Assembly (NCBI GenBank): GCA_022564935.1
Contig: JADFKM010000071.1
Location: 1-8,423 of the forward strand
DNA length: 8,423 nucleotides
Direction of reading: 5' to 3'
From: Candidatus Dadabacteria bacterium
GTDB taxonomy: Bacteria; Desulfobacterota_D; UBA1144; Nemesobacterales; JADFKM01
The translations under genes were made by a program, and so were the position numbers. Below the pieces are notes generated by a model. It worked only from the letters and a program-made list of their open reading frames with translations. It searched no databases and was not told where the DNA came from. This document shows, one piece after another, positions 1 through 8,423 of this stretch (its first letter is position 1; the number at the start of each line of letters is the position of its first letter).

Positions 1-446
1 CCTTTGATACCCCTGAATGAGTCGTGAATAGAGGGCACAGAGCCGTCGAGGCTGATTGCAACCCTCGAGGCCCCCGCTTCCTTGAACTTCCTGAAAGCAA
101 CGCTAGTGAGCAGGGGGGTTACGCTTGGGGATACAGTGGTGCGTATGCCCTTGCCGACGCTGTAGCTTATCAGGTCGTACAGGTCGTTCCTCTTCAATGG
201 GTCTCCGCCCGTAAACACGAGCAGGGGCGAACCGAACTTTTTTATCTCGTCTATCAGACCAAACCCCTCTTCTGTAGAAAGCTCAAGGGGGTCTCTCCCG
301 GGTCTGGCATCGGCCCTGCAGTGGACGCAGGCAAGGTCGCATGCCTGGGTTACCTCCCATATGACTATGAAGGGAGAGAGGGCAAAATCAATCCGGGGGG
401 GTTTTTGGGGTCTGCGTTTTGCTCTACCGTTAGGAAGCTCATTCAT
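1..446 (-). CDS. Radical SAM protein, N-terminal part (heme-associated, TIGR04053/AhbD-like)
   Basis: This is the first 148 residues of a radical S-adenosylmethionine enzyme; the rest runs off the left edge. The [4Fe-4S]/SAM motif is C36-x3-C40-x2-C43 within VTQACDLACVHCRA, preceded by a typical first beta strand (IVIWEV, residues 27-32). A glycine-rich SAM-binding motif FTGGDP lies at 78-83, and ISLDGS at 131-136 is another usual barrel strand. These motifs resemble, from memory, the TIGR04053 radical SAM/SPASM family, which is related to heme-modifying enzymes such as AhbD and NirJ. The start is fixed: an in-frame TAG sits directly before the ATG, though the ribosome site (GGATGG) is weak. 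The gene lies 93 bp downstream of hemG on the same strand, so a role in late heme synthesis or modification is likely, but the substrate is not shown. A SPASM domain would be beyond the edge. The radical SAM call is secure; the subfamily is less so. Confidence 0.88.
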   Translation of the reverse strand, partial: MNELPNGRAKRRPQKPPRIDFALSPFIVIWEVTQACDLACVHCRADARPGRDPLELSTEEGFGLIDEIKKFGSPLLVFTGGDPLKRNDLYDLISYSVGKGIRTTVSPSVTPLLTSVAFRKFKEAGASRVAISLDGSVPSIHDSFRGIK

Positions 447-5456: not shown

Positions 5457-5543
5457 TGGTGCCGAAGGCGAGACTCGAACTCGCACGCCCATAAGGGCAC
5501 TGCCCCCTCAAGACAGCGCGTCTACCAATTCCGCCACTTCGGC
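5457..5543 (-). tRNA. tRNA-Leu (anticodon GAG), CCA encoded
   Basis: A complete class II tRNA of 84 nt plus encoded CCA (5459-5457). The acceptor stem GCCGAAG / CTTCGGC pairs in all 7 positions, with discriminator A. The D arm has GGCGGAATTGGTAGACGC. The anticodon stem CTGTC / GGCAG (one G-U) holds the loop TTGAGGG, with GAG in positions 3-5, which reads CUC and CUU leucine codons. A long variable arm TGCCC-TTAT-GGGCG and T arm GCGAG-TTCGAGT-CTCGC complete the cloverleaf. It has its own promoter just upstream and lies between apgM and the heme operon on the same strand. The long variable arm and close likeness to E. coli tRNA-Leu make the identity secure. Confidence 0.97.
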
Positions 5544-5634: not shown

Positions 5635-6858
5635 CTACGCTCCAAATTTCTGCAGCCTCCCTGCATGGGCGAGCATAAGCGTCATGGCGTCGACGGCCCT
5701 GAAAACTCCAAGCTCCCCGTTCAGACACTCCCGCTCCGAAAACCCGGAGCTCTTCCCGCCCAGCGTCAGACGGGACTTCAGCAGGAAAGGCACCGGATGC
5801 CAGCTGTGGGATTTCATGACCGAAGGGGTGGAGTGGTCTCCGGTAACTACAAGGACGTCGGGTTTGAGCTGCAGTATGCGCTGCACATAGCCGTCGAATT
5901 CCTCGATCACCCCCACCTTTCCCTCAAAATCCCCGTCCTCCCCGTAACTGTCGGTCTTTTTCACGTGCAAATAGATAAAATCGTAGCCGCCGATGTGTTT
6001 TTCCAGGGTTTCAATCTCGCTCTCGATGGTAGTACCGTCCACCTCCAGAACGTCCATCCCTACCAGCTTGGCTATCCCCCTGTACATAGGGTAGGCCGCA
6101 ACCGCCCCGGCGCTAACCCCGTAAAGCTCCCTCCATGAAAGCAGGTCGGGAAGGCGCGATATCCCGCGAAGTAGAAGGTAGTTGGCCTTTTCCTCGTCCC
6201 TTATGGCCTCGGTGGCCATTGTTATGAACTGCTCTATTATCCTGGCGACGGGCTCGGCCGCTTCAGTCCTCGGTGTGGGCTGGAGCGGGCCACTCTCCAC
6301 AACTTGCGGGTCGGTATCGGAGACCTCGTCCGAGCCGGTACGAAGGGGCTCGGGGAACGTTAGCACGAGGGCGAACCTGTGCTCAACACCGGAATGTATC
6401 GAAACACCGACACCGTCGATCTCGCTCACCGCTTCCCTTATCTTAGTCGTGATACGCCGGTTCTCCTCGGTAGAAATCCTTCCCGCCCTCCTATCCGCAA
6501 GAATTGGCTTATCGTCTTTGTATTCGACAGTAGCAAAGTTGCCTCTGACCGCGATATCGTTACGGGTTACTTCCACACCCAGGCCAAGGGCTTCGAGCAC
6601 GCCCCTGCCAATCCCGTATTTGAGGGGGTCGTAGCCGAAGAGAGCGAGGTGGGCGGCACCGCTCCCGGGGGTTATGCCCGGAGCCACCGGGATGTGCAGA
6701 CCCGTGGCGCTACCTCTCGCAATCTCGTCGAGGTTCGGAGTCGAAGCGGCTTCAAGCTCGGTCTTGCCGCCCAGAGGCAGGCCGCCGAGCCCGTCCAGTA
6801 CACACAGAACCATCTTCGTAGTGTTCGAGCTCACAAGCTCACCTATGACTTCCTGCAT
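5635..6858 (-). CDS. apgM: 2,3-bisphosphoglycerate-independent phosphoglycerate mutase, archaeal type
   Basis: A 407-residue enzyme of the alkaline phosphatase superfamily that interconverts 3- and 2-phosphoglycerate in glycolysis and gluconeogenesis, in the cytoplasm. Metal and catalytic motifs are VLDGLGG with D22, the catalytic-serine loop TPGSGAAHLALFGYDP (S66), YGIGRGVLEALG (81-92), KKTDSYGEDGD (300-310, D303), TGDHSTP (339-345, D341/H342) and HSWHPVPF (351-358). The short GKTELEAASTPNLDE segment (31-45) is typical of ApgM rather than bacterial GpmI, which is larger (about 510 residues). I chose the ATG at 6858 because GGAG lies 8 nt before it; a TTG 33 nt upstream would also be in frame but is less likely. 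The stop is 48 bp from the tRNA-Leu promoter, and the MBL gene ends 74 bp upstream, so the two may share a transcript. ApgM also occurs in several bacterial phyla. The call is firm. Confidence 0.93.
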   Translation of the reverse strand: MQEVIGELVSSNTTKMVLCVLDGLGGLPLGGKTELEAASTPNLDEIARGSATGLHIPVAPGITPGSGAAHLALFGYDPLKYGIGRGVLEALGLGVEVTRNDIAVRGNFATVEYKDDKPILADRRAGRISTEENRRITTKIREAVSEIDGVGVSIHSGVEHRFALVLTFPEPLRTGSDEVSDTDPQVVESGPLQPTPRTEAAEPVARIIEQFITMATEAIRDEEKANYLLLRGISRLPDLLSWRELYGVSAGAVAAYPMYRGIAKLVGMDVLEVDGTTIESEIETLEKHIGGYDFIYLHVKKTDSYGEDGDFEGKVGVIEEFDGYVQRILQLKPDVLVVTGDHSTPSVMKSHSWHPVPFLLKSRLTLGGKSSGFSERECLNGELGVFRAVDAMTLMLAHAGRLQKFGA

Positions 6859-6866
6859 ACTCCCCG

Positions 6867-6870
6867 CTCC
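6867..6870 (-). promoter_or_regulatory. apgM: Ribosome binding site deciding the apgM start
   Basis: GGAG, 8 nt before the ATG at 6858, on the minus strand. The upstream in-frame TTG at 6891 shows no comparable site, so the shorter protein is preferred. Confidence 0.6.
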
Positions 6871-6932
6871 AACAACTCTTCTCAGTACCAAACAAGCGAT
6901 TTCATAAAGCCCGAATCATTCTAAACAAACTC

Positions 6933-7667
6933 TCAGGGGTCATCAAGCTCAAATTCAATCCCGTCATAGGCCGGCATTACCCCCTTGGGAAGCCTCCGGG
7001 AAAGCTCGGCGTAGTCAAGCTCATGACCCATGTGTGTAAAGTATGCCCGCTTTGGCCCGATTGCAGCGATAGCATCGAGGGCTTGGTCAACGCTGAAATG
7101 AGCCGGATGGGGGTCATTCCTCAACGCTCCGATAATAAGGATTTCAAGCCCCGTCAATTTCTCCAATGAGCCCTCCGGTATGCCGCTGCAATCTGTCAGG
7201 TACGCCATATCGCCAATCCTGTAGCCGATGATAATCCACTGTGCGTGGTTTATCTCGACTGGAACGATTTTAACCCCGCCTATCTCGAACTCCTCTTCGA
7301 TGACAAATATCTCAAGCTGGGGTTTTCCCCCTGCCGTATAAGAGCCGTCAAAGATATAGCGAAACCCGCTTTTAAGATTTTCTACCGTCTCTGGGTTCCC
7401 ATAGCACGGAATTCGCATCTTGTTCATAAAGTTAAAGGTCCTAAGCTCATCTATGCCGTGGGTGTGGTCGGCGTGGTCGTGGGTCAGGACGATCGCCCGG
7501 GGGATGAGTCGGTGGTCTTTGACAAAGGCGATGATTAGTTCGGCCTGCGGCGCCATTCCCGGGTCGATGATCCAACAGTCGCCGCCGTCACGCAAGTAGA
7601 CGGTGTACCCGTTCTCGACAAAAACGGTGTCGTTGGTCACGTGGAATTGGACCACTTCGTTGCTCAT
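6933..7667 (-). CDS. MBL-fold metallo-hydrolase, apparent YqgX/GloB-PhnP chimera
   Basis: A 244-residue metallo-beta-lactamase fold protein. The dinuclear metal motif is THDHADH (62-68: H63, H65, D67, H68), with further likely ligands H141 (INHAQ), D159 (YLTDCSG) and H212 (FTHMGH). From about residue 62 on it reads like PhnP-type cyclic-phosphate phosphodiesterases: GIDELRTFNF (71-80), RIPCYGNPET (85-94), DPHPAHFS (185-192), a C-terminal AYDGIEFE (233-240). Those proteins normally open with a GTGTS motif and a cysteine cluster. Here the first 60 residues instead read VYLRDGGDCWIIDPG (23-37), like glyoxalase-II/YqgX proteins. Before residue 70 all six Ile codons are ATC and all three Arg codons are CGN; from residue 72 on ATA and AGG are frequent. 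The ATG overlaps the stop of the upstream gene (ATGA) and has AGGAG 7 nt before it. The substrate is unknown. It may be a real fusion or a misassembly. Confidence 0.75.
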   Translation of the reverse strand: MSNEVVQFHVTNDTVFVENGYTVYLRDGGDCWIIDPGMAPQAELIIAFVKDHRLIPRAIVLTHDHADHTHGIDELRTFNFMNKMRIPCYGNPETVENLKSGFRYIFDGSYTAGGKPQLEIFVIEEEFEIGGVKIVPVEINHAQWIIIGYRIGDMAYLTDCSGIPEGSLEKLTGLEILIIGALRNDPHPAHFSVDQALDAIAAIGPKRAYFTHMGHELDYAELSRRLPKGVMPAYDGIEFELDDP

Positions 7668-8423
7668 AGCCCTGCTCCTATTGAAGAGAGCAGCCAGTCC
7701 GGGGCATCAATCAGCGTGGCCATGTCCTGATCCGTTCGCTCGAGTCGCAATGTCCAGGCGAGTTCCGGCCGGCGCTCCAGTTGGATGCGTCGCGAACCGG
7801 CCTCAGCCGCCAGAGAGGAGCCTGCGTAGCGTCGTTCGATGCGGTGCAACAGATCGCCGGCGACGAAGATGTGACGAAGACGCAATTCGGCATCGGCGCG
7901 GGCCAGTAGCATCTTGCCGCGAAGTCGCAGTCCTTTGGCCAGATCAGCCGCCCGTACGGCATGGTCCCGGTCGAAGCAGAGCGGATGAGCGGCGATCCGC
8001 TCGATGGCGGCCAGGGCGGCCCCCGGTGGGTCGTCTGTTGTCAGCACGTCGGCGGCTTGTTTCAGATCTGATTCCGTCATCCGCCGACATTGATCTTGAA
8101 ACCAGGTCAGCGCCTCGGCGATGGTGTTTGGATCGAACACGTGGCCGATGTCCGGGCGGCGCACGGTTACCGAGACGCGCTGGCCGCGTAGCATGTTCAA
8201 GCCGTCGCGCATCAGGAACCGATTGGGATCGGCCTTGCCGACGGCGTAGAAGAGCGGGATGTCGCGGTGCGATCGAACGTTGCTGACGCTTACGGTCGGT
8301 GGGACGTAGTTGGCGGTGACGGCGACGGCGGATGCGGGGAAACCTTCGACGTAGAGTAGATGCAACGCCAACGCGCCACCGGCGGAGTGTCCGGTGAGCA
8401 GGACGCGACTCGGATCGTGCGCA
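7664..8423 (-). CDS. Alpha/beta hydrolase, C-terminal 252 residues, with helical tail
   Basis: The start is beyond the right edge; 252 residues are visible. Near the edge is a nucleophile elbow GHSAGGALAL (the Ser of GHSAG), preceded by RVLLT. About 70 residues later come the likely acid in YAVGKADPN and the likely base in DIGHVFDP, completing a catalytic triad typical of esterases or depolymerases. The final 125 residues or so form an Ala/Arg/Leu-rich, apparently all-helical tail with repeated RIA/AADLAKGLRLRGK-like stretches that I cannot assign. It could be a TPR-like or regulatory extension. The gene uses only CGN for arginine and almost only ATC for isoleucine, unlike the heme genes. Its TGA overlaps the ATG of the MBL gene. 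The reaction and substrate are not determinable. This segment may not be from the same genome as the left part of the window. Confidence 0.78.
   Translation of the reverse strand, partial: AHDPSRVLLTGHSAGGALALHLLYVEGFPASAVAVTANYVPPTVSVSNVRSHRDIPLFYAVGKADPNRFLMRDGLNMLRGQRVSVTVRRPDIGHVFDPNTIAEALTWFQDQCRRMTESDLKQAADVLTTDDPPGAALAAIERIAAHPLCFDRDHAVRAADLAKGLRLRGKMLLARADAELRLRHIFVAGDLLHRIERRYAGSSLAAEAGSRRIQLERRPELAWTLRLERTDQDMATLIDAPDWLLSSIGAGL
7675..7680 (-). promoter_or_regulatory. Ribosome binding site for the MBL gene inside the upstream stop region
   Basis: TAGGAG on the minus strand ends 7 nt before the ATG at 7667. It lies within the last codons of the alpha/beta hydrolase, so translation of the two is coupled through the ATGA overlap. 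Confidence 0.7.

Follow-up and report, generated by a model that had tools for sequence, protein, structure and literature searches.

Does an open reading frame (ORF) in which two metallo-beta-lactamase (MBL) families meet at a shared motif represent a gene of the bacterium to whose genome it is assigned, or a product of assembly? The window analysed here comprises all 8423 bp of contig C10, one of 104 contigs in a draft genome of 1.99 Mb that is 88.6% complete; judging by this fragmentation and completeness figure, the genome appears to be metagenome-assembled. Read along the minus strand, C10 carries a partial hydrolase gene, the MBL ORF, an apgM-like gene, a tRNA-Leu gene and a HemD-HemE ORF, followed by genes for ferrochelatase, a protoporphyrinogen-oxidase-like protein and a partial radical SAM protein (Table 1). 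The uroporphyrinogen-III synthase and uroporphyrinogen decarboxylase domains are found here in a single ORF, as a HemD-HemE fusion.

Table 1. Features of contig C10 bearing on the origin of the MBL ORF
Feature	Coordinates	Strand	Remarks
alpha/beta-hydrolase gene, 3' portion (foreign part)	7664..8422	-	best matches in planctomycete genomes
MBL ORF, 244 aa, hybrid	6933-7667	-	two families meet inside it
MBL ORF foreign part, glyoxalase-II-like 5' end, residues 1-61	7485..7667	-	planctomycete MBL matches; GSH_gloB
Junction interval, codons T62-H-D-H-A-D-H68 (+ T69), probably common to both parent genes	7461..7484	-	
MBL ORF host part, 3' portion of PhnP-like gene, residues ~69-244	6933..7463	-	NF038231
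apgM-like gene (2,3-bisphosphoglycerate-independent phosphoglycerate mutase), host	5635..6891	-	Pfam PF10143, PF01676
tRNA-Leu (GAG)	5457-5543	-	between HemD-HemE ORF and apgM
HemD-HemE ORF, 655 aa	3034-5001	-	HEM4 (20-262) + URO-D (310-645)

Our data indicate, with a probability of about 94%, that C10 is a chimeric contig, with bases 1 to ~7461-7484 belonging to the host and the rest to another, probably planctomycete-like, organism. A preliminary description of this DNA had noted that at the HxHxDH motif of the MBL gene, between 7440 and 7500, both the codon use and the protein family switch abruptly, and had offered the joining of two genomes during assembly as one of two causes. The switch is borne out by the present analysis, which narrows it to about 7461-7484.

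The change of family is clear from the matches of the two halves of the protein: the N-terminal part matches planctomycete MBL proteins and the C-terminal part matches proteins of the same order and class as the host. The MBL ORF protein has matches in 53 of 60 sampled genomes, mostly of that order and class, and the strong PhnP-like matches (order and class, 40-69% identity) start at residues 51-59, with one exception, a relative whose match starts at residue 24 and yet is PhnP-like throughout. Residues ~69-244 are 55-70% identical to the PhnP-like proteins of 29 relatives from the same order. The common PhnP-like N-terminus of the relatives, starting M-[KR], is absent from the window ORF, and residues 1-61 have no match in the host relatives' phnP loci. 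With E values as low as 4e-10, glyoxalase-II-like MBL proteins of planctomycete genomes match residues 3-68 or 16-68, and nearly every one of these matches ends at residue 68.

Curated models divide the protein in the same place. The likeness to the MBL fold metallohydrolase of the GPMC system, or PhnP-like MBL, is confined to residues 57/58-239, with NF038231 matching from residue 58 (E 5e-67; 226 bits against a cut-off of 360) and TIGR03307 scoring 61 bits against 272; relatives match these models over their full length, whereas the window protein is without the N-terminal part and stays below the cut-offs, although for NF038231 the intact relative L004 is also below (349.5 against 360). The likeness to glyoxalase II-like MBL proteins comprises the DPG and THxHADH motifs and a match to NCBIfam GSH_gloB (TIGR03413) at residues 18-77 (E 2e-9; 37 bits against a cut-off of 200.8), but only the N-terminal quarter of such a protein is present. 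Thus, the full-length curated cut-off is reached neither for PhnP/GPMC-type MBL nor for glyoxalase II, and the earlier reading of a glyoxalase-II-like N-terminal half followed by a PhnP-like half lacking its usual N-terminus stands. The ORF is a hybrid and most likely not a real gene.

The position of the join can be judged from the alignment, in which the relatives read V-L-Y-T-H-S-H-A-D-H-T-H-G and the window reads V-L-T-H-D-H-A-D-H-T-H-G. Residue 61 is L in the window, the foreign type, and Y in host relatives; from residue 69 on, THG (69-71) and then IDELRTFNF are of host type. On this basis we place the join within codons 62-68 (7464-7484), with codon 69 (7461-7463) as its outer limit.

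The right side, which had been flagged as possibly foreign, is foreign in both composition and homology. For composition, the background was a 171-kb sample of the source genome (338 host windows), leaving out the short contigs C1 (L164) and C8 (L168), both of which read as N throughout, being withheld or masked. For 7485-8423 the tetranucleotide distance, a check that had also been proposed, has a z of 6.5 and exceeds that of every one of the 338 host windows. This stretch has a GC content of 63% (host mean 52%, z 2.5), a value as high being seen in only one of the 338. In the foreign codons (the MBL N-terminal part plus the hydrolase), none of 31 Arg codons is AGA or AGG, which make up 60% of those in the host (P = 6e-13); ATC accounts for 14 of 16 Ile codons, where the host share is 35% (P = 2.5e-5). 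The codon use of the MBL N-terminal stretch taken alone is modest evidence of foreignness: as the preliminary description had counted, Ile is ATC in all six cases (P about 0.002 at the host frequency) and Arg is CGN, and the ATA and AGG codons said to be frequent after residue 72 number five and four, respectively, in residues 65-244. By mean codon log-likelihood alone, residues 1-64 were not distinguished from genes of the host; the choice of Arg and Ile codons, together with the neighbouring hydrolase gene, did separate the foreign part from the host. These differences also bear on a misassembly within one genome, with both sides of the join from the same organism. Such an event would make a second species unnecessary, and the right part was indeed binned with the source genome, but its codon use, tetranucleotides and homology all set it apart from the host, a discrepancy that only a recent transfer into some other part of the genome could reconcile. 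We regard this explanation as extremely unlikely.

As for the origin of the ~0.94 kb on the right, 59 other genomes, most of them from the host's order and class, gave no match to the hydrolase. It is best matched, over residues 3-224 and with an E value of 2e-13, by proteins of planctomycete genomes that have the same layout, a hydrolase domain and then a helical-looking tail. Among 386 varied genomes the best E value was 3e-6, and the small phylum of the best genome there gave weak hits only. The closest hydrolases are about 30% identical; neither a close donor genome nor a close donor gene was found in these searches, including that of the planctomycete phylum, and the best planctomycete family gave no closer hit. 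Similarly, the hydrolase found nothing in plasmids or viral contigs and the MBL N-terminus nothing in phages; viral contigs also lacked any match to a 21-mer taken from the foreign flank of the join. The planctomycete genomes were chosen by their content of PF07596, a family whose known distribution leads us to take genomes rich in it as planctomycetes; with the phylum assigned through these genomes, the donor was probably a planctomycete-like bacterium. The stop codon of the hydrolase and the start codon of the MBL ORF overlap in ATGA (7664-7667), as would be expected if the two genes formed one operon in the donor.

The evidence that weighs most comes from elsewhere in the source genome. A search with the protein of an intact relative located the missing phnP N-terminus on a second contig, C32 (bases 3-143, minus strand), where residues 1-47 of PhnP, 74% identical to the relative, run off the contig end; no second copy of the C-terminal part of phnP was found in the source genome. 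Beyond phnP, C32 encodes what we take, from our own reading of the sequences, to be an HtrA-like protease and then a divergent AMIN-type amidase. In all 29 relatives inspected, the divergent amidase, a full-length phnP and apgM are contiguous in this order, and C32 carries the amidase and the phnP N-terminal part while C10 carries the phnP C-terminal part and apgM. Because phnP is truncated at the end of C32, and because placing C32 before C10 restores the order amidase-phnP-apgM, the option that two genomes were joined in assembly is strongly favoured. Relatives carrying this protein in full beside such a neighbour, part of what the preliminary description had named as speaking against a misassembly, were not found among the 29 loci. 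The distance in the relatives from the equivalent of the C32 end to residue 69 is near constant at about 96 bases (29/29), and therefore only ~70-94 bases are absent from the assembly. As a separate observation, the HtrA-like gene (C32 218-1801, minus strand) sits between the amidase and phnP; in the loci of the 29 relatives phnP directly adjoins the amidase, and none of these loci showed an HtrA match.

The C32 fragment also decides the case of an ordinary native MBL gene whose N-terminus has diverged and whose composition varies locally. The MBL superfamily does hold both halves of the protein, but the N-terminus of the ORF occurs in none of the relatives, the upstream hydrolase has foreign homologues and an extreme composition, and the normal phnP N-terminus is present on C32, which we count as refuting. 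We consider this the least probable of all the explanations.

A true recombination deserves more attention, since the fusion is in frame, the ORF is open and the motif is intact. Foreign DNA would have entered the chromosome and fused with phnP at the motif, displacing the 5' part of phnP to the place now seen on C32, and the contig fragments taken alone are compatible with such an event. However, it needs a coincidence: the 5' part of phnP stops mid-gene exactly at a contig end and near its usual neighbours, as in a broken assembly. Moreover, the foreign part reaches the end of C10 with no host DNA seen beyond it, and integration between unrelated genes that share an identical stretch of ~20 bases would be very rare. 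Recombination is thus very unlikely, and we hold it highly improbable that a foreign glyoxalase-II-like MBL gene was fused in vivo with the host phnP-like gene at HxHxDH to give a functional hybrid metallohydrolase.

A chimeric contig, the reading we prefer, is marked here by a sharp boundary between the homologues of two lineages, by the remainder of the severed gene at the C32 end and by the compositional shift. The host DNA on C10 would then comprise the heme genes, the tRNA-Leu gene, apgM and the 3' part of the PhnP-like gene, and the stretch from ~7461-7484 to 8423 would hold the other organism's hydrolase and the start of its glyoxalase-II-like MBL gene. The true 5' end of the host phnP would be the one at the C32 end, separated from the C10 part by the unassembled gap. 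The assembler would have crossed between genomes through a short sequence common to both at the THDHADH codons, which specify a conserved metal-binding motif; as this motif is encoded at that point by either gene, the frame was preserved. We therefore see an ordinary artefact: neither the hybrid MBL protein nor the hydrolase should be attributed to the source genome, and the bases of C10 to the right of ~7461-7484 should be trimmed from it.

Stretches common to different species are known to form chimeric nodes in metagenome assembly graphs and to cause chimeric contigs (PMC8171044). C10 resembles the chimeras described for de Bruijn graph assembly (PMC8171044) in that two species would be joined at a common stretch, here the codons of a conserved motif. 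It differs from the usual ones, which join similar species, and here the join lies inside a coding motif with the frame kept, mimicking a real fusion protein. A motif-coding stretch of ~20 bases may yield an in-frame false fusion, and such fusions are detectable by seeking the severed half at the end of another contig. A k-mer misjoin is the likely mechanism, and a 21-base piece of the motif, CCACGCCGACCACACCCACGG (7456-7476), is seen in other genomes. Among the genomes fetched, exact copies of it occur at seven loci (L018, L037, L046, L065, L068, L076 and L081), so the motif is able to link unrelated genomes at short k. One of these loci, L046, bears the record title Candidatus Kuenenia stuttgartiensis, and its gene content is tmk-holB-metG-tatD-PhnP-like MBL; by our own reading this content looks alphaproteobacterial, and the record is possibly a mislabelled draft genome.
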